Part shown: positions 40,971-50,902 of the stretch, in pieces
How positions within the stretch are numbered: position 1 is the first letter of the stretch
Layout: each line of letters begins with the position of its first letter
Assembly (NCBI GenBank): GCA_938011315.1
Contig: CALLUG010000012.1
Coordinates: 62,001-126,000 of the forward strand
From: an uncultured Flavobacteriaceae bacterium
GTDB lineage: Bacteria > Bacteroidota > Bacteroidia > Flavobacteriales > Flavobacteriaceae
DNA length: 64,000 bases
Direction: 5' to 3'
The notes under the pieces: model-generated
Seen by the model: the letters and a program-made list of their open reading frames with translations, nothing else
Told to the model about the DNA's origin: nothing
Databases searched by the model: none
Position numbers and translations under genes: made by a program

Positions 40971-42461
40971 ATGTTTAAATACGGAATAGACACCTTATCC
41001 ACTCACACAGTATTAGCAATATCTCGAAACAAAACTAAAGCTGTATTAACACAAGAAGCCATTAAAAACGTAACGCTCTGTAGAGAAAAAGTAGAAAGTA
41101 TAGCAAATTCTAACAAAGCTGTTTATGGTATAAACACAGGTTTTGGTCCTTTATGCGACGTACAAATTTCGCCGCAAGAAACTAGCAAACTCCAAGAAAA
41201 CTTGCTAATAACTCACGCCGTAGGTGTAGGAAATCCAATTGCAAAATCGATATCAAAACTTATGCTGGTATGTAAAGTTCATGCACTATGCCAAGGGTTT
41301 TCCGGAATAAGATTAAGCGTTATACAGCGCATTATATATTTTATAGAACACGACTTAATTCCTGTAGTGCCAGAGCAAGGATCGGTAGGAGCTTCTGGCG
41401 ATTTAGCACCGTTATCGCACTTATTTTTGCCCTTACTAGGCGAAGGAGAATTTTGGGATAATAACAAAATAGTACCCGCCAACCAAATACTAAAGCAACA
41501 CAAACTAGATCCTATACAGCTAAAGGCGAAAGAGGGTTTAGCCTTAATAAATGGAACACAATTTATTTTAGCACACACTATTGTTGGCTTAGAAAAAATG
41601 GAATACCTACTAGACCTAGCAGATGTTTCTGGAGCGATGAGTATAGAGGGCTATCAAGGGAGTGAGTCTCCTTTTAAAGATGCTTTGCATACTATTAGAC
41701 CCTTTAAGGGGACTCTAAAAGTGGCAGAACATATGCGGTTATTATTTAAAGATTCGCAAAACATGGTTTCACACCAAAATTGCGAACGCATACAAGACCC
41801 TTACTCTATGCGTTGTATCCCTCAAGTTCATGGGGCTTCTAGAAATGCTTATTACCATTTACAAGAACTGGCAGAGATAGAATTGAACTCTGTAACAGAC
41901 AATCCCATTGTACTAAGCATAGACGAAACAATTTCTGGAGGAAATTTTCATGGACAACCCTTAGCAATGGCTTTAGATTATGCCTCTATAGCAGCAGCAG
42001 AGTTAGGCAATATTTCCGATAGGCGATCATATTTATTATTAGAAGGTAAGTCTGGTTTACCACGATTACTAACCGAAAGTGGCGGACTAAATTCCGGGTT
42101 TATGATTCCACAATACACTACTGCAGCCTTAGTTTCAGAAAACAAATCACTCTGCTTTCCGCCATCGGCAGACAGCATTCCAACTTCTTTAGGACAAGAA
42201 GATCATGTTTCTATGGGGAGTATTTCAGGAAGAAAGTTTAATCAAATTTTAAATAATTTAGAAAAAATTTTAGCCATAGAACTTATGTACGCCGCACAAG
42301 CTTTAGAGTTTAGAAGGCCAAATACATTTTCCTCAATACTAGAAAAAAATTACGCTTTAATTCGTACAAAAGTAGCTAAACTAGAAGACGACCGAATACT
42401 AAAATACGATATAGATGCTATGATTACGATGGTTAACAATAAATTATTTACGGTAAATTGA
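40971..42461 (+). CDS. hutH: histidine ammonia-lyase
   Basis: 496 residues. Removes ammonia from L-histidine to give urocanate, first step of degradation. YGINTGFGPLCDVQI, the MIO prosthetic-group triad ASG in EQGSVGASGDLAPLSHLFLPL (about residues 141-143), and QDPYSMRCIPQVHGASRNAY plus NPIVLSIDETISGGNFHGQPLA. First gene of hutHUIG, transcribed into hutU 14 bases later. Upstream DNA is the ISAs1 remnant, which may have displaced an older upstream neighbour; no hut regulator is in the window. Confidence 0.95.
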   Translation: MFKYGIDTLSTHTVLAISRNKTKAVLTQEAIKNVTLCREKVESIANSNKAVYGINTGFGPLCDVQISPQETSKLQENLLITHAVGVGNPIAKSISKLMLVCKVHALCQGFSGIRLSVIQRIIYFIEHDLIPVVPEQGSVGASGDLAPLSHLFLPLLGEGEFWDNNKIVPANQILKQHKLDPIQLKAKEGLALINGTQFILAHTIVGLEKMEYLLDLADVSGAMSIEGYQGSESPFKDALHTIRPFKGTLKVAEHMRLLFKDSQNMVSHQNCERIQDPYSMRCIPQVHGASRNAYYHLQELAEIELNSVTDNPIVLSIDETISGGNFHGQPLAMALDYASIAAAELGNISDRRSYLLLEGKSGLPRLLTESGGLNSGFMIPQYTTAALVSENKSLCFPPSADSIPTSLGQEDHVSMGSISGRKFNQILNNLEKILAIELMYAAQALEFRRPNTFSSILEKNYALIRTKVAKLEDDRILKYDIDAMITMVNNKLFTVN

Positions 42462-42475
42462 GACACAAATAAGCT

Positions 42476-44473
42476 ATGGATTTTAAAACAGAAATACGAC
42501 AAGGGATTCCTTCAAAATTGCCAGAAAAACCAAAAAAACGAAACCAGGAAAATAGAGCTCCAAAACGAAAAGATATTTTGTCTAAAGACGAAAAAAAATT
42601 AGCAATACGCAATGCGCTAAGGTATTTCCCTTCAGAATGGCATCGAGAGTTAGCCATAGAATTTGCAGATGAGCTAAAAACCTATGGTCGTATTTATATG
42701 TTTCGGTTTAAGCCAAGTTATGACATTTATGCAAGACCAATAGAGGAGTACCCCGCAAAATCTAAGCAAGCAGCAGCTATTATGCTAATGATTCAAAATA
42801 ATCTAAATCCAGATATAGCACAGCACCCTAACGAGTTAATTACCTATGGTGGTAATGGTGCTGTATTTCAAAACTGGGCACAGTACTTACTAACAATGCA
42901 GTATTTGGCAACACTTAGCGATACACAAACATTACATATATATTCGGGGCACCCTATGGGTTTATTTCCATCATCTAAAGAAGCTCCAAGAGTGGTTGTA
43001 ACCAATGGTATGATGATTCCTAATTACTCACAGCCAGACGATTGGGAAAAATTTAATGCTCTAGGCGTAACACAGTACGGACAGATGACGGCAGGATCCT
43101 ATATGTATATAGGGCCACAAGGCATTGTGCATGGCACAACCATTACCGTAATGAACGCATTTCGAAAAATTTTGAAACCCAAGGATAGTCCTAAAGGAAA
43201 ACTATTTTTAACAGCAGGTTTGGGTGGTATGAGTGGTGCGCAACCAAAAGCAGGAAACATAGCAGGTTGCATTACTATTTGTGCAGAAATAAACCCTAAA
43301 GCAGCTACAAAACGCCATAAGCAAGGTTGGGTAGACCTTCTTATTAGCGATATAGATGACTTAATAACACGAGTAAAACAAGCACAACAAACAGACGAGG
43401 TCGTCTCTATAGCGTATATTGGAAATATTATTGATGTGTGGGAATCTTTTTACGACGCTAATATTTTTGTGCATATTGGTTCCGATCAAACCTCATTACA
43501 CATCCCTTGGACAGGGGGGTACTACCCTGTAGGACTTAGTTACGAGGCTTCCAATAAACTGCTTAGAGAGCAACCCGAAGTGTTTAAATTAAATGTACAG
43601 CAATCCTTACGTAGACATGCAGAAGCTATAAATAAACACGCTGCTAGAGGAACTTACTTTTTCGATTATGGTAATGCCTTTTTATTAGAAAGTGCTCGTG
43701 CTGGTGCTGATGTAATGGCAAAAAACAAAATAGATTTTAAGTATCCATCTTATGTACAAGATATTTTGGGCCCTATGTGTTTCGATTATGGTTTCGGACC
43801 ATTTCGTTGGGTATGTGCCTCAGGAAAACCAGAAGACTTAGATGTCACAGACACGATTGCAATGAACGTGCTGCAAGATATGATGAATAATGCTCCAGCC
43901 GAAATCCAACAACAACTGCAAGATAATATTACTTGGATAAAAAATGCAAAACAAAACAAAATGGTGGTTGGTTCTCAAGCACGAATTTTGTATGCCGATG
44001 CCGAAGGACGTTCTAAAATAGCTCAAGCCTTTAATAACGCCATTGCAACACAAACGATAGGCCCTGTAATATTAGGTCGAGACCATCACGATGTTAGTGG
44101 CACAGACTCTCCATATAGAGAAACCTCAAATATTTATGACGGTAGTAAATTTACTGCCGATATGGCAATACACAATGTTATTGGAGATAGTTTTAGAGGA
44201 GCTACTTGGGTGTCTATTCACAACGGTGGTGGCGTTGGTTGGGGAGAAGTTATAAATGGGGGCTTTGGACTGTTGCTAGATGGAACCCCAGAAGCAGAAA
44301 CACGCTTAAAAAACATGCTGTTTTACGATGTTAATAATGGTATTGCACGCAGAAGTTGGGCTAGAAACCAAGAAGCTATTTTTGCAATTAAACGAGAAAT
44401 GCAGCGTAATCCTAACCTAAAAGTAACCTTGCCAAATGTGGTAGAAGATGAGGTGTTAAACACATTATTTTAA
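42476..44473 (+). CDS. hutU: urocanate hydratase
   Basis: 665 residues, longer than the ~556 of Pseudomonas or Bacillus HutU because of an N-terminal extension and internal inserts. Hydrates urocanate to imidazolonepropionate with NAD as a tightly bound cofactor. YGGNGAVFQNWAQYLLTMQYL, SGHPMGLFPSSKEAPRVVVTNGMMIPNYS (split here into SGHPMGLFPS and VVVTNGMMIPNYS), LTAGLGGMSGAQPKAG, and WVSIHNGGGVGWGEVINGGF near the C-terminus are the family hallmarks. Stop overlaps the hutI start. Confidence 0.95.
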   Translation: MDFKTEIRQGIPSKLPEKPKKRNQENRAPKRKDILSKDEKKLAIRNALRYFPSEWHRELAIEFADELKTYGRIYMFRFKPSYDIYARPIEEYPAKSKQAAAIMLMIQNNLNPDIAQHPNELITYGGNGAVFQNWAQYLLTMQYLATLSDTQTLHIYSGHPMGLFPSSKEAPRVVVTNGMMIPNYSQPDDWEKFNALGVTQYGQMTAGSYMYIGPQGIVHGTTITVMNAFRKILKPKDSPKGKLFLTAGLGGMSGAQPKAGNIAGCITICAEINPKAATKRHKQGWVDLLISDIDDLITRVKQAQQTDEVVSIAYIGNIIDVWESFYDANIFVHIGSDQTSLHIPWTGGYYPVGLSYEASNKLLREQPEVFKLNVQQSLRRHAEAINKHAARGTYFFDYGNAFLLESARAGADVMAKNKIDFKYPSYVQDILGPMCFDYGFGPFRWVCASGKPEDLDVTDTIAMNVLQDMMNNAPAEIQQQLQDNITWIKNAKQNKMVVGSQARILYADAEGRSKIAQAFNNAIATQTIGPVILGRDHHDVSGTDSPYRETSNIYDGSKFTADMAIHNVIGDSFRGATWVSIHNGGGVGWGEVINGGFGLLLDGTPEAETRLKNMLFYDVNNGIARRSWARNQEAIFAIKREMQRNPNLKVTLPNVVEDEVLNTLF

Positions 44474-45711
44474 TGCGAATTATATTCAAACATATAAAAG
44501 AATTACTTCAAGTAAGACCCAAGTCTGTAAGCTTTGTATCTGGCAAAGAAATGAGCAAATTGCCAACTATAAAAAATGCATATTTAATTATTGAAGACGA
44601 AACAATTTTAAATTTTGGACCAATGTCAGAATGTCCAAACCTTAAGTTCGATCAAGTTATTAATGCTACAGGACAAATACTATTGCCCTCATGGTGCGAC
44701 TCGCATACCCATATTGTATATGCAGGACATCGTGAAGGTGAGTTTGTAGACCGTATCAATGGTCTATCTTACGAAGACATTGCTAATAATGGTGGTGGCA
44801 TATTGAACTCTGCAAAAAAATTACAAGAAACCTCCGAAGACGACTTGTACAAACAAAGTAAACAACGCCTAGTTGATGTAATGCAATTAGGTACAGGCGC
44901 TATAGAAATTAAATCGGGATATGGCTTAACCACAGACGCCGAGTTAAAAATGCTTAGAGTAATTAAACGCTTAAAAGAAACTTACCCCATAGAGATTAAA
45001 GCCACATTTTTAGGCGCACATGCTATACCCTTAAAATATAAAACCAATGCACAAGCTTATATACAATTACTAATTGATGAGCTTATTCCTAAAGTAGCAA
45101 AACACCAACTAGCAGAGTATATTGATGTGTTTTGCGAAACAGGATATTTTTCTGTACAAGATACAGCACAAATTTTAGAAGCAGGAGCGCGCTATGGTTT
45201 AATTCCAAAAATTCATGTTAACCAATTTACAGCAATAGGAGGCGTACAGTTGGGCGTAAAACACAAAGCCTTATCTGTAGATCATCTAGAAGAATTGCGA
45301 GATCAAGATCTACAAGCCTTACAAAATACAGCAACAATGCCTGTTGCACTACCTGCCTGTTCTTTTTTCTTAGGTATCCCTTATACTCCAGCTCGAAAAA
45401 TGATAGACGCAGGATTGCCCTTAGCAATAGCCACAGATTATAACCCTGGATCTACACCTTCTGGAAATATGAATTTTGTAGTATCTACTGCTTGTATAAA
45501 AATGAAAATGACACCAGAAGAAGCCATTAATGCCGCAACCATTAACGGTGCTTATGCTATGGGGTTAGAGCATAAAGTAGGGTCGATTACTAAAGGGAAA
45601 CTCGCCAATTTAATTCTAACAAAACCTATAAGCTCTTATGGATTTATACCTTATTCCTTTGGGGAATCTCAAATAGATAGCTTATACATAAAAGGGCAAA
45701 AAATGTCATAA
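44473..45711 (+). CDS. hutI: imidazolonepropionase
   Basis: 412 residues, amidohydrolase. Opens the imidazolone ring to N-formimidoyl-L-glutamate. LLPSWCDSHTHIVYAGHREGEF holds the HxH metal site, GTGAIEIKSGYGLTTDAELKML, IKATFLGAHAIP, VFCETGYFSV, KIHVNQFTAIGG and ATDYNPGSTPSGNM complete the active site. Starts at the last base of hutU's stop and is followed by hutG 16 bases later. Confidence 0.95.
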   Translation: MRIIFKHIKELLQVRPKSVSFVSGKEMSKLPTIKNAYLIIEDETILNFGPMSECPNLKFDQVINATGQILLPSWCDSHTHIVYAGHREGEFVDRINGLSYEDIANNGGGILNSAKKLQETSEDDLYKQSKQRLVDVMQLGTGAIEIKSGYGLTTDAELKMLRVIKRLKETYPIEIKATFLGAHAIPLKYKTNAQAYIQLLIDELIPKVAKHQLAEYIDVFCETGYFSVQDTAQILEAGARYGLIPKIHVNQFTAIGGVQLGVKHKALSVDHLEELRDQDLQALQNTATMPVALPACSFFLGIPYTPARKMIDAGLPLAIATDYNPGSTPSGNMNFVVSTACIKMKMTPEEAINAATINGAYAMGLEHKVGSITKGKLANLILTKPISSYGFIPYSFGESQIDSLYIKGQKMS

Positions 45712-45727
45712 CTTAATTCATATTATA

Positions 45728-46717
45728 ATGATACAAGATCAGTTAACAGTAGGTTATAAAGAAGGACAAAAAGCAAACTGGACAGGACGATTATCGGCAG
45801 CCAACTTACCTCCTCAATATTGGCATCAAATCATTGCATTAAGGAATATAAATACGATAGAAACACAAGTCGATTTTAATATTGGACTAATAGGTTATGC
45901 CTGCGACGAAGGTGTGCGTAGAAATCTAGGAAATGTGGGCGCAGTACAGGGCCCCAAAGTATTAAGAGAAAAGCTATCTACCTTACCCGTACATTTTAAG
46001 GGTATGCAGGTAGCAGACTTAGGCGATATCATTTGTGTTGATCAACATATGGAAGATTGCCAAAAGGCTTTGTCTAAAAGCATTACAAAACTACTTAAAC
46101 ACAATGTGTTTCCTATTGTTATTGGGGGAGGGCATGATATGGCTTATGGGCACTACTTGGGAATTAAAAACTTTACTAAACAAAAAAGCGTTGGAATTAT
46201 AAATTTTGATGCACATTTTGATTTAAGACCCGTAAGCAGTTTGCCAAATTCTGGAACTCCTTTCAACCAAATTTCTAAACATTTACAGTCCTCTGGAACT
46301 CCGTTACATTACTTTGCCATAGGAATTCAAAAACAATCAAACACAAAAGAATTGTTTGCTATTGCAAAGCAAGAAGGTGTTACTTACGCTTATAACACCG
46401 AGTGTGAGTCTGGTAAAGATATAGAGGCTTTACAACTAAAGTTAAGTGCGTTTATGCAAAGTGTAGATTATCTTTATATTACTATAGATATGGACGGTTT
46501 TTCTTCGGCATATGCTCCTGGAGTAAGTGCAGCATCACCTTTTGGCTTTACGCCTAAGTTTGTGTACACAATGTTAGCCTTTTTGTTTCGTAGTAAGAAA
46601 GTAATTTCTTGCGATATTGCAGAGCTAAACCCTGTTGTAGATTTTAATAAACATACGTCGAGCTTAGCAGCTAAGCTTGTAGATGTTATTGTTGAAAATT
46701 GTTGTAAATTGGTCTAA
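45728..46717 (+). CDS. hutG: formimidoylglutamase
   Basis: 329 residues, arginase/agmatinase fold. Hydrolyses N-formimidoyl-glutamate to glutamate and formamide. Mn-binding motifs: PIVIGGGHDMAYGHYLGI, GIINFDAHFDLRPV and YITIDMDGFSSAYAPGVSA. Completes hutHUIG, turning histidine into glutamate. Tail to tail with the ovothiol-type operon. Confidence 0.92.
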   Translation: MIQDQLTVGYKEGQKANWTGRLSAANLPPQYWHQIIALRNINTIETQVDFNIGLIGYACDEGVRRNLGNVGAVQGPKVLREKLSTLPVHFKGMQVADLGDIICVDQHMEDCQKALSKSITKLLKHNVFPIVIGGGHDMAYGHYLGIKNFTKQKSVGIINFDAHFDLRPVSSLPNSGTPFNQISKHLQSSGTPLHYFAIGIQKQSNTKELFAIAKQEGVTYAYNTECESGKDIEALQLKLSAFMQSVDYLYITIDMDGFSSAYAPGVSAASPFGFTPKFVYTMLAFLFRSKKVISCDIAELNPVVDFNKHTSSLAAKLVDVIVENCCKLV

Positions 46718-46817: not shown

Positions 46818-47951
46818 TTAAAATTTTATTAATTCGTCCATTACACTATCAACATATTGAACATTAGTATAGTAATGAGGTGAAATTCTAAAAATGTTTT
46901 TTACTCCATTTTTAGGAAATTGCAGTGGGGAATTCCAATGATTCATTGTTGAAACATTAAGACCTATATTTTTAAAATTATTGATTAAAGAACTTTCTAA
47001 ATCAGGATTTTTTAAAAAGAAACCGCAAATTCCGGATTTAGAGCTTATTGAACCAATTATTTTTAGTTTATCATTTGCAGAAACTACTTTTCTTATATTA
47101 TTAGCATATTGTTCTTTGTTGGAAAATAGTTTGGTTTTAATGACTGAATTGCTTTCTTTTATTGCATTTGTTAAACCAAGTAGCGCAGCAATATTTCGTT
47201 CCCATAATTCAAATCTTTTGGCATTTTTAATAATATGAAGTCCTATTATTGCTTCATTTTTATCCAAAACTAGACTTGATGATGATAAATCGAGTTGAGA
47301 TTCTTTTATCTTCGCTTTTGGTTTTATATATATAAACCCTGTTCCTCTTGGACCTCTAAGCCATTTTCTGCCAGTGGTTATGAAAGCATCACATTTCATT
47401 CTTTGAACATCAACAGGTATGTTTCCTAAAGATTGGCAACCGTCAACAATGTATATTGCGCCATATTTGGAAGCCAATATACCAATTTCGTATACAGGGT
47501 TAACAATTGAGCCATGTGCAATAGCGTGACTTAAAACTATTGTTTTAACACCTGATTTAAGGAAATCTTCAATTTTATTTAAATCTAACGTTCCATCAAA
47601 ATCGCAGTTGTGTATAATAAGTTCAGCTTTACATATACTCGTTTTTTTATATAAATTAATCAAATTTGTACCAAATTCTGAAGAAAGTGTTAGTATTTTA
47701 TCTCCTTTATTTATTGGTAGTCCTTCAATTACTAAATTCCAACCTCTACTAGCACTATCTACAAAGGCTATATTATTTGGACTTGGAGCATTAATACTGA
47801 GTGCAGCTTGGACATAAAAATCTTGAATTTTAGATTCAGATAAAGTAGCGGCTTGATAAGCGCCCACCTGTCGTTCTAGTTGTAGGTGTTCAACAATAAT
47901 ATTATGTGTTGTTTCACTGGTAATTGATGCTCCGGCATTATTTAAATACAT
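46818..47951 (-). CDS. ovoB: PLP-dependent OvoB-like sulfoxide lyase (aminotransferase class V fold)
   Basis: 377 residues. Class V aminotransferase fold: N-terminal MYLNNAGASI, IAFVDSASRGWNLVIEGL, VLSHAIAHGSIVNPVYEIG, IYIVDGCQSLGNIPVDVQ with the PLP-binding Asp, and the PLP lysine in FITTGRKWLRGPRGTGFIY (about residue 194). Alone this could be a cysteine desulfurase or EgtE-type enzyme. Because it follows ovoA and a cupin gene on the same strand (15 bases apart), the best reading is the lyase that cleaves 5-histidylcysteine sulfoxide to 5-thiohistidine. Gene symbol is by context. Confidence 0.7.
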   Translation of the reverse strand: MYLNNAGASITSETTHNIIVEHLQLERQVGAYQAATLSESKIQDFYVQAALSINAPSPNNIAFVDSASRGWNLVIEGLPINKGDKILTLSSEFGTNLINLYKKTSICKAELIIHNCDFDGTLDLNKIEDFLKSGVKTIVLSHAIAHGSIVNPVYEIGILASKYGAIYIVDGCQSLGNIPVDVQRMKCDAFITTGRKWLRGPRGTGFIYIKPKAKIKESQLDLSSSSLVLDKNEAIIGLHIIKNAKRFELWERNIAALLGLTNAIKESNSVIKTKLFSNKEQYANNIRKVVSANDKLKIIGSISSKSGICGFFLKNPDLESSLINNFKNIGLNVSTMNHWNSPLQFPKNGVKNIFRISPHYYTNVQYVDSVMDELIKF

Positions 47952-47966
47952 TATATTAGGTTTAAT

Positions 47967-48773
47967 TTATACGACATCATCAATCTTTTTGAGCGTATTT
48001 TTATTAAAAAAAAGTACGGTATTAGCTTTTTCTTTTGAACTGGCTACAGTAATAGCATATTTTCCAATCAACGTTCCATCACCGTGTATTGTTCCAGGAG
48101 GGGTGTATAGCCCGTAGCCATAGGGAATTCTATATGCAGAAAAACTATATTGATTTGCAGAGATTTTTTTGCCTATGATAATATGTCCTTTTGAGCAGGG
48201 ACTAAGTGGAATATGAATATGGGGAAAATTATGTGTTTCAACGTAATAGCCTCCGCCTCCACTTTCTTGTGTTAGAAAGTCCTCTTTATAATTAGGTTTA
48301 TAATCGTATTCCATAAGAACGGTCTGTGCTGGAAAATAAACTACGGGGAAACTTGAACCATTTTCAATTAGTTCTAAGCCATAAAATTTTATATTTTCTT
48401 TATTGGCTAAAACAATAGGAATTTTAAAATTGTCTGGCACTAATAAAGCTCCCATTCCATCAAAAATGTTAGCGTCTTTACCTGCATTTCTAATAATGTT
48501 TTTTTTGTCTGCTTGCTTTGAAGAAAACCATTCTGCTTTAATAATTATCCTTTCATTAGTATTGACCTCATTTTTTTCTAAAGTGAGTAACGATTGTTCT
48601 GATAAAGAAAACTTCCATTGAGAGGTTCCTTTTTCTATAAAAGCTCTACCTGTGAGTGTCTCTAAAACCAAATCATTTGGTTTATTAACTGAATAACGAG
48701 ACAGGGTAGCTTGCTCCAGCATTTCCTTTCTTTCCTCGTTTAATTCAAAATGGGTGTTAATGGGACGTTTCAT
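47967..48773 (-). CDS. cupin-like protein in the ovothiol operon
   Basis: 268 residues from the ATG at 48773, chosen because it makes an ATGA overlap with the ovoA stop (an in-frame ATG 8 codons earlier is the alternative). No signal peptide. The centre has HNFPHIHIPLSP (HxH, about residue 184) and, 40 residues on, YGLYTPPGTIHGDG, which fits cupin motif 2 (G-x4/5-PxG-xx-H). A second, N-terminal half is beta-rich and also cupin-like in rhythm, so it may be bicupin. I know no named family. Its place between ovoA and the ovoB-like gene suggests a metal-dependent step or binding role in thiohistidine metabolism. Confidence 0.6.
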   Translation of the reverse strand: MKRPINTHFELNEERKEMLEQATLSRYSVNKPNDLVLETLTGRAFIEKGTSQWKFSLSEQSLLTLEKNEVNTNERIIIKAEWFSSKQADKKNIIRNAGKDANIFDGMGALLVPDNFKIPIVLANKENIKFYGLELIENGSSFPVVYFPAQTVLMEYDYKPNYKEDFLTQESGGGGYYVETHNFPHIHIPLSPCSKGHIIIGKKISANQYSFSAYRIPYGYGLYTPPGTIHGDGTLIGKYAITVASSKEKANTVLFFNKNTLKKIDDVV

Positions 48774-50902
48774 TTTGTTAAAATTTTCTTTTTCCACACC
48801 CCTATATAAGGTAGGATATATTGGTATTTTCTACTTGTTTCTTTAAGGATAAAAGGGATATCTTGTGTTTCGCTTAAAAAATCAAAATTAGTAGCTAATA
48901 ACGTTTTAATATACTCACTAGAATAAAAAGGCTTTTCATCCTTTATGTAGCCTCCTATCCATTTCTCTTTTTCGGTAAACTCTTCTTTCCATGTAAACGG
49001 GGACGTAATAACCAAAACAGCACCTTCATTCATTCTATTGTTTAATTCTGATAAAAATGAAATCGGATCATATAATCTATCTACTAAGTTAGCCGCCAAC
49101 ACAAAGTCATATCCTTTTAGTTTGGCAGGTAGGTTACAGGCATCTGCTTGAAAAAACTCAACATTCGCTCCCTTTTTGTCTAATTGAATCGTATTCAAAT
49201 GAATTGATTTATGTTCATACATATTTCCTTCAATCAGTGTTTTATATTTCACCGTTTCAAGTTCTTTCAGTCGATATGCATATTGAATAAAATGAGCAGA
49301 AAAATCTACTCCTGTAACGTTATCAAAATAGCGACTAAGTTCAAAACAACTTCTGCCAACAGAACATCCTACATCCAGTGCTTTTAGTTTTTTACTTTGA
49401 TTCCAAAATTGTGATGCATAGTTGATCACAGCAACTGCAAAAGGTTCTTTGCCTAAATAATTGTTACTGTAATGTGCATCTAAATACATACTACAGGCCT
49501 CATCTGTTTCGTAGGAGTCAGCATTTTGAGTAATTTCATGCTCAGACTGAACTAGTCTAAAACCAGCATGCTGAAAAAAATGTTTTCTAAATGCATATCG
49601 ACTTTCTCTTCTTGCGCAATTGCCTCCAGAAATCCAGCTACCTCCTTTAATTATATTGTGCTTATCATCGAAGGTTGGTATAGAAAAATCATCGTAATAT
49701 TGATGCGGCTTGAATCCTTTGAATGGCTGAATAGGACTTTCGGTCCATTGCCATACATTGCCACAGACATCGTAAAGTTTGTTATGTTTAAATTTATTGA
49801 CAGGGCACGAAGAGGCAAAGTGGGCTAAGTGGATGTTCGTGTTTTTGTGTTCAGAATCTTCATTTCCTAAAAAATGTTGATTATACATAGAGTGCCACTC
49901 ATGCTCTGATGGTAACCTGACATTTTTACCTTTAGACTCGGAATACCAATTACAAAAAGCTTTGGCTTCGTAATAGTTTACCTCTACAGGCCAGTTCATT
50001 GGGAGAGGAATTTCCTCGATCATATTACGCAGCTTATAGCCATGAGGTTCCGTATGGTCTGCTATCCAAAAAACGGGATGGGTGGCTTGCTTGAATTCCA
50101 CCCAAGAAGCTCCTTCATCTGTCCACCACTTATGGTTTTTATACCCACCGTCTTTTACAAATTCTAAATATTCGCTATTGGATATAAGCGATTGGCTTGT
50201 TGTAAACCTTTTTACCTCTTGGGAGTCTTTGCCATATTCATTATCCCAGCCGTAATAATCCGAAGGCATATTAATTCCTAATTGAACGTTTTCATTTTTA
50301 ATTTCAATAAAATTGTTGCTTGGCACTGTATTGCTATATTCTTTACAAGTCGTCCATCCTTTGGTTTGCTGATGTATATACTTAATATCAAGTTGGCGAA
50401 TTAAAACAGAAGATGTTTCCAAATGGATGAGTTCATGTTCTATACCCATTAACACAATCCAAGCTGGATGATTCCAATCGATTATTGTTCCCAAAGGAAG
50501 ATTGTCAATTACTTCTATAACAATGTCTTGAACACTATTTCTGTACTGCTTAACGTCGTCTACTTTAGGCCAATCAATATGTTTGTCATTTAAATCATCC
50601 CATGACATCTCGTCTACGCCTACTGCAAATAAGGATTCGAAAAGCTCATTTACCCTTGAGGTAATGATTTTTGATACCGTTAACTTATTAATAAAGAAAG
50701 TAGCTGTATGACCAAAGTAGAAAATGAGTGGGTGTCTTAAGGCTTCTGGGCGTTTATAAAATGCTTCCTCACTATTTAGACATTGAAATAAGTTTTCATA
50801 AAGTTGGAAAGTATGACAAAAAAAATCTTTAATTTCTTGTCTTTTACTTTCGTCTAGTGTTTTTCCTAGGAAAGGAGAGTTATAAATTTTTTTATTTATC
50901 AT
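48770..50902 (-). CDS. ovoA: 5-histidylcysteine sulfoxide synthase / thiohistidine N-methyltransferase (OvoA)
   Basis: 710 residues, three parts. DinB-like N-terminal domain with FGHTATFFINKL and the iron facial-triad motif HELIHLE (HxxxHxE, about residue 157). FGE-sulfatase domain to ~435 (LPMNWPVEVNYYEAKAFCNW, VRLPSEHEWHSMY, DVCGNVWQWTESP, GGSWISGGNCARRESRYAFR). C-terminal SAM methyltransferase at ~460-700 (LDVGCSVGRSCFELSRYF, VTGVDFSAHFI). This full fusion identifies OvoA rather than EgtB: it couples cysteine and histidine with oxygen to the sulfoxide and later methylates the imidazole. First gene of the operon. Confidence 0.9.
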   Translation of the reverse strand: MINKKIYNSPFLGKTLDESKRQEIKDFFCHTFQLYENLFQCLNSEEAFYKRPEALRHPLIFYFGHTATFFINKLTVSKIITSRVNELFESLFAVGVDEMSWDDLNDKHIDWPKVDDVKQYRNSVQDIVIEVIDNLPLGTIIDWNHPAWIVLMGIEHELIHLETSSVLIRQLDIKYIHQQTKGWTTCKEYSNTVPSNNFIEIKNENVQLGINMPSDYYGWDNEYGKDSQEVKRFTTSQSLISNSEYLEFVKDGGYKNHKWWTDEGASWVEFKQATHPVFWIADHTEPHGYKLRNMIEEIPLPMNWPVEVNYYEAKAFCNWYSESKGKNVRLPSEHEWHSMYNQHFLGNEDSEHKNTNIHLAHFASSCPVNKFKHNKLYDVCGNVWQWTESPIQPFKGFKPHQYYDDFSIPTFDDKHNIIKGGSWISGGNCARRESRYAFRKHFFQHAGFRLVQSEHEITQNADSYETDEACSMYLDAHYSNNYLGKEPFAVAVINYASQFWNQSKKLKALDVGCSVGRSCFELSRYFDNVTGVDFSAHFIQYAYRLKELETVKYKTLIEGNMYEHKSIHLNTIQLDKKGANVEFFQADACNLPAKLKGYDFVLAANLVDRLYDPISFLSELNNRMNEGAVLVITSPFTWKEEFTEKEKWIGGYIKDEKPFYSSEYIKTLLATNFDFLSETQDIPFILKETSRKYQYILPYIGVWKKKILTK

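Follow-up and report, generated by a model that had tools for sequence, protein, structure and literature searches.

A compact three-gene unit with ovoA and a class V PLP enzyme

We analyzed a 64,000-nucleotide stretch of a genome assigned to an uncultured Flavobacteriaceae bacterium (contig CALLUG010000012.1; hereafter the window), focusing on a cupin-like gene that lies between ovoA and a gene for a pyridoxal phosphate (PLP)-dependent enzyme. The three genes are encoded on the minus strand in this order and form one tight unit:

48770-50902, minus strand: ovoA, 710 amino acids, OvoA fused to a C-terminal thiohistidine N-methyltransferase domain
47967-48773, minus strand: cupin-like gene, 268 amino acids, in an ATGA overlap with the ovoA stop codon
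46818-47951, minus strand: gene for a class V (Aminotran_5) PLP enzyme, 377 amino acids, a presumed C-S lyase in the place of OvoB

The TGA stop codon of ovoA and the ATG of the cupin-like gene share the four bases ATGA, and 15 bases separate the cupin-like stop codon from the ATG of the PLP-enzyme gene, exactly as a first-pass annotation made from the letters of the window had placed and spaced the three genes. A promoter and terminator scan of the locus gave no more signals than shuffled sequences, and the guanine-cytosine content of the unit (31 to 36%) is not distinctive.

By its sequence, the ovoA product is a genuine, intact full-length OvoA, as had been proposed from the fusion of its domains. 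It exceeded the cut-offs of the N-terminal NCBIfam model TIGR04344 (654 bits, cut-off 400) and of the C-terminal model TIGR04345 (281 bits, cut-off 170), and it carries the HxxxHxE motif as HELIHLE at residue 156. Its nearest solved relative is 8khq, which is annotated as an OvoA-type fusion (E 4e-233). Among the 136 columns that are invariant in 17 other full-length OvoAs, the protein from the window keeps 131, and three of the five deviating columns are in the methyltransferase domain. In a tree of 18 OvoAs and two outgroups, it forms the longest end branch (1.36) and lies outside a supported clade (98/98) that unites the three other OvoAs of the same phylum with one gammaproteobacterial OvoA, the placement of so long a row being unsure; one gammaproteobacterial sequence (L067) was left out of the alignment and the tree. 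The highest similarity was to a gammaproteobacterial OvoA (49%), and the three same-phylum OvoAs were 44% identical. Viral contigs contained no match to OvoA.

Such divergence could also mean that the three proteins together make a product other than ovothiol A, namely a thiohistidine with a modification or another compound of sulfur and histidine related to it. The long branch and the five exchanged columns, together with the unusual lyase family and the unusual cupin, would be in line with this idea, but the retention of 131 invariant columns and the large margin by which both OvoA models were passed speak against it, and drift following a transfer can lengthen a branch as well. We therefore regard another product as improbable.

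The PLP enzyme matched the Pfam family Aminotran_5 (PF00266) with 122.8 bits and reached no NCBIfam cut-off, neither that of EgtE (TIGR04343, 106 bits, cut-off 400) nor those of the SufS models. As the alignment places Trp339 at the position of the catalytic cysteine in the C-terminal loop of SufS, a cysteine desulfurase is improbable, and on the basis of this exchange and of scores below the model cut-offs we rejected that assignment.

For comparison, we inspected the 1.5-kb flanks of 12 OvoA loci drawn from 274 gammaproteobacterial genomes. A class I/II PLP enzyme was adjacent to OvoA at nine of these loci. At six of them (L062, L071, L065, L066, L068, and L069), it was a PatB-family C-S lyase that exceeded its cut-off, and the neighbors at L063, L064, and L073 were other PF00155 proteins, recognized by PF00155 alone. 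The latter three remained under every NCBIfam cut-off, including that of PatB, and possibly represent a second type of OvoB. By eye, no lyase was found within the 1.5-kb flanks of ovoA at L070 and L072, and L067 was excluded from this count. When three of 18 plasmid OvoA matches were inspected, ovoA was followed by an annotated PatB-family lyase on a Sulfurovum plasmid, and the incomplete gene tables of the Ewingella and Rahnella plasmids listed no lyase at the ovoA loci. The PLP protein of the window had no match (E up to 1e-3) at the 12 gammaproteobacterial OvoA loci; its nearest relatives are at most 32% identical, and matches with E up to 1e-25 were present in 12 other genomes of 178.

Because the neighboring PLP enzymes identified at other OvoA loci are of class I/II whereas that of the window is of class V, the term "OvoB-like" that had been given to this gene applies to its position after ovoA and not to its family (PF00266). 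Descent from OvoB was rejected on comparing Aminotran_5 with the PF00155 and PatB proteins next to OvoA at those loci, which were taken to stand for OvoB. The class V enzyme is a candidate C-S lyase that most likely replaces OvoB without being homologous to it. With respect to the ovothiol pathway of OvoA and OvoB, the locus therefore shares a full-length OvoA fusion and a PLP-dependent C-S lyase candidate in one operon but differs by the class of its lyase, class V versus class I/II (PatB or related) at nine of the 12 gammaproteobacterial loci, and by the extra gene between the two enzymes. EgtE, which is also of class V, shares the PLP superfamily and a presumed C-S cleavage of a sulfoxide with the enzyme of the window, but the EgtE model is missed by far, and the partner is an OvoA and not an ergothioneine synthase. 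Here, a PLP enzyme of class V has likely taken the place of OvoB.

A candidate metal site in the cupin-like protein

The 268-residue protein had no hit in either Pfam or NCBIfam (E up to 1), and a Cupin_2 search of its own genome hit three other places but not this gene. Curated sequence profiles can miss true cupins, and neither Pfam nor NCBIfam has a model for the family to which the protein belongs. A comparison with PHROG gave nothing above noise, and no match was found in phages or viral contigs. As, in addition, a single plasmid homologue was found, with 32% identity, we rejected a phage or mobile-element gene.

The two motifs by which the first-pass annotation had recognized a cupin, HxH and PPGTIHGDG, are present in the stretches HNFPHIHIP and TPPGTIHGDG. 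However, H187 of the HxH motif is kept in close homologues only and is not among the invariant positions of 13 aligned sequences (including that of the window), which include W82, N102, E179, H181, P184, H185, H230, and D232. What is conserved is the set of E-x-H-x3-H and H230, except that L098, a homologue outside of the 13 aligned sequences, showed no counterpart of H185 on visual inspection. Because of their invariance, Glu179, His181, His185, and His230 are the best candidates for metal ligands, and the protein probably holds a metal through these four residues, which makes the previously considered metal binding plausible. The usual order of cupin ligands is H-H-E-H, whereas the candidate order in the protein of the window is E-H-H-H.

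Models of the fold had low confidence. The full-length AlphaFold2 model had a predicted local distance difference test (pLDDT) score of 41, and a model of the core (residues 70-268) reached a pLDDT of 54.5 and a predicted template modeling score (pTM) of 0.56. The Foldseek list obtained with the core model mixed cupins with unrelated beta proteins. In a second-look structural alignment, the core model matched DUF4867 (Z 6.8), the ureidoglycolate hydrolase AllA (6.0), the sugar ketoisomerase QdtA (5.5), and acireductone dioxygenase (5.4) best, where a Z below 8 can mean merely a common arrangement and absence from the list does not exclude a family; a second DUF4867 entry of the same protein gave a Z of only 4.5. 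The 17 matches with a Z of 5 or more are mostly what we take to be cupin folds, including DUF4867, AllA, QdtA, and acireductone dioxygenase. Despite this structural likeness, none of these four was a significant Foldseek match, and searches of the PDB sequences with the protein and its profile gave no match. A profile comparison with four cupins, a weak test as it used single-sequence templates, yielded nothing. In view of these models, a cupin fold is plausible: the modeling suggested in the first-pass annotation brought up cupin folds as the highest structural matches, none of them significant and all based on a core of low confidence.

Distribution of the cupin-like family and a possible role in thiohistidine processing

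To place the unit in a wider context, we used genome searches that were samples and not a census (1,988 in all, including repeats), with overlapping samples of the phylum (395 genomes), the family (249), and relatives (40). The cupin-like gene was found in one genome of each of these three samples, which was always the genome of the window. A motif scan of 84,980 species genomes, which detects close relatives only, revealed eight relatives with 42 to 49% identity, all from Gamma- or Zetaproteobacteria or their subgroups, and genome and plasmid searches added eight further distinct and mostly distant loci (L058, L059, L060, L010, L096, L097, L098, and L100). Before arriving at 16 accepted loci, we merged repeats (L057 = L008, L093 = L002, L094 = L005, and L095 = L007) and dropped the doubtful homologues L061 (E 2e-4) and L099 (E 6e-4). 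The family is sparse also where it occurs, with five of 274 gammaproteobacterial genomes (counting the centre genome and one doubtful case), two of 78 genomes of the class of Mariprofundus, and five of 95 genomes of one gammaproteobacterial order (one doubtful). It is a small family that we found outside the genome of the window only in Gamma- and Zetaproteobacteria.

OvoA itself exceeded the cut-off in four of the 395 genomes of the phylum; some match was present in 279 of them, mostly weaker and by score of the sulfoxide-synthase/FGE type. At the remaining three OvoA loci of the phylum, the 1.5-kb flanks contained neither a cupin-like nor a class V gene (0/3), and no cupin-like match was found in the flanks of the 12 gammaproteobacterial OvoA loci (0/12). 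Conversely, OvoA was above the cut-off in none of eight home genomes of the homologues, several of which are incomplete metagenome assemblies, with weaker matches in six (best 125 bits). The neighbor count proposed earlier for the 268-residue protein, carried out on these samples, thus did not find the homologues next to ovoA, which is the outcome that the first-pass annotation had named as refuting its proposal. As ovoA and the homologues were never seen together in the searched genomes and loci, we rejected a general ovothiol enzyme for the cupin-like protein, and the idea of a partner that belongs to the pathway as a general trait was not supported; what stood of the proposed tie to the pathway is the tight coupling of the gene between OvoA and the PLP-dependent C-S lyase candidate.

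We tentatively favor, at a probability that stays below one half, the view of the locus as a rare ovothiol operon variant, probably acquired laterally, with a class V lyase and a recruited metal-binding cupin that acts after the lyase. OvoA, a member of its family by sequence, would join histidine and cysteine and could methylate the imidazole. The class V enzyme would then carry out the C-S cleavage of OvoB as a non-homologous stand-in, in a similar way as EgtE in ergothioneine biosynthesis. The cupin-like protein, recruited from the small family that we otherwise found only in Gamma- and Zetaproteobacteria, probably holds a metal through the four ligands proposed above and, judging from its position in the operon, would act after the lyase on 5-thiohistidine, its sulfenic acid, or ovothiol, in a metal-dependent tailoring or protection of the reactive lyase product. 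A review reports that EgtE turns its sulfoxide substrate into a labile sulfenic acid (PMC9103826). A lyase product in need of further handling would thus have a known chemical counterpart, and a helper acting on it would make chemical sense.

As the ATGA overlap and the 15-base gap place the gene between two pathway enzymes, we put the probability of a direct role of the cupin-like protein on thiohistidine at somewhat under one half. Each of the three genes is rare among relatives, and their joint arrival would fit this rarity. A more far-reaching version appears unlikely to us. It would make the cupin-like protein a previously unrecognized metalloenzyme of thiohistidine processing that, together with a class V lyase independently replacing OvoB, makes or recycles an undescribed ovothiol derivative.

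A precedent for the position of the gene is 5-thiohistidine N-acetyltransferase (5THNAT), a tailoring enzyme whose gene, as one study describes, lies next to ovoA in Bacteroidota (PMC12631010). In contrast to the cupin-like protein, to which it is unrelated and which occurs next to ovoA in one genome, 5THNAT belongs to the GNAT family and, according to the same study, recurs in more than 50 genomes (PMC12631010). Its authors state that OvoA was the only enzyme besides 5THNAT for which a 5-thiohistidine derivative was a known substrate (PMC12631010), and a further enzyme that acts on 5-thiohistidine compounds would therefore help to explain their purpose. The locus offers a compact three-gene unit for testing thiohistidine processing. 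In two genomes of the same family as the window, we also observed a GNAT gene (937-1470 in L020 and L021) that ends nine bases before ovoA, recognized by PF00583 in L020 and by eye in L021; these are probably of the 5THNAT kind (PMC12631010).

Several observations weigh against a role of the cupin-like protein in the pathway. No OvoA match was found at any of the 16 accepted homologous loci, whose flanks ranged from about 1.2 to 12 kb (17 loci were tested, including L099 but not L061), and the sampled genomes contained no second genome with the three-gene arrangement. A related PAS protein is encoded in the locus of six of the nine close proteobacterial homologues, and this proximity suggests another ancestral role. 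The full-length and the core model are both weak, and at E up to 0.001 Foldseek returned nothing for either. In addition, the authors of the 5THNAT study judged other genes in an ovoA cluster to be unlinked to 5-thiohistidine (PMC12631010). As for the literature, a search with most subscription papers outside its scope returned no paper that joins a cupin with ovothiol or with OvoA and OvoB, and the matches for cupin and ergothioneine biosynthesis look unrelated by title and the start of the abstract.

It is also quite possible, although we do not regard it as probable, that the gene is a passenger, which means that a general and perhaps stress-related metalloprotein laterally landed in an ovo operon, where its co-transcription would match the expression of an antioxidant without any contact to thiohistidines. 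The occurrence of the family in eight other genomes without OvoA above the cut-off and at 16 loci without an OvoA match is what such a protein would show, as is the fact that an ovo operon with this gene was seen in one genome only. The neighbors of the homologues point in the same direction, with a LysR regulator followed by catalase beside the gene in L004, a CDGSH/Glu_synthase protein upstream of it in L003, and the nhaC antiporter gene on a plasmid of Vibrio scophthalmi. However, one would hardly expect a passenger at a four-base overlap in the middle of a unit that otherwise consists of pathway genes, and the three rare genes may have come in as a group. On the Vibrio plasmid (pVS53, L010, 11818-12654), the 32%-identical homologue overlaps the end of nhaC.

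Neighbors of the homologues and setting of the unit

The PAS protein was found with the homologues L001, L003, L005, L006, L008, and L058 and not in the loci L002, L004, and L007. In five of the six loci, it carries a GGDEF (diguanylate cyclase) domain; the exception is L005, where the PAS protein lacks GGDEF and is encoded about 4 kb from the cupin homologue. These neighbors suggest a signaling or ligand-sensing context for the cupin-like family. In L002 and L005, the cupin homologue neighbors a mechanosensitive channel.

On both sides, the ovo unit is flanked by genes of the plus strand:

40971-46717, plus strand: hutH, hutU, hutI, and hutG for histidine degradation, over the cut-offs of TIGR01225, TIGR01228, TIGR01224, and TIGR01227
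51586-57426, plus strand: a helix-turn-helix (HTH) gene and genes for a 905-residue helicase-like and a 674-residue methylase-like protein, named by eye

The complete hutHUIG operon is convergent with the ovo unit and is a neighbor outside of it; 100 bases separate the two ends. One could imagine that the cupin-like protein is a sensor or regulator. By binding a metal, histidine, or thiohistidine, it would control expression or signaling, a function that its proteobacterial relatives may have with their PAS-GGDEF neighbors, and here it would also be tied to the convergent hut operon. The PAS(-GGDEF) genes in six of nine close loci and the short distance to hutHUIG would agree with this, but the hut operon is not co-transcribed with the ovo unit, and the cupin-like protein matched no profile of a DNA-binding domain in Pfam or NCBIfam. 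Moreover, inspection by eye, without a profile scan, found no PAS or GGDEF protein among the open reading frames of about 39-64 kb of the window. We give a regulatory function little weight.

Upstream of ovoA, the HTH gene and the helicase-like and methylase-like pair resemble a type III restriction-modification system, although the 674-residue methylase-like protein had no NCBIfam match at E up to 1e-20. Such a setting would be compatible with an insertion hot spot. At the other end, genes for histidine breakdown and for the synthesis of a histidine-based thiol lie end to end. Pseudoalteromonas plasmids carry copies of hutH and hutU with 73-78% identity to those of the window, which hints at an exchange between phyla, and Persicobacter is also among the best named plasmid relatives.

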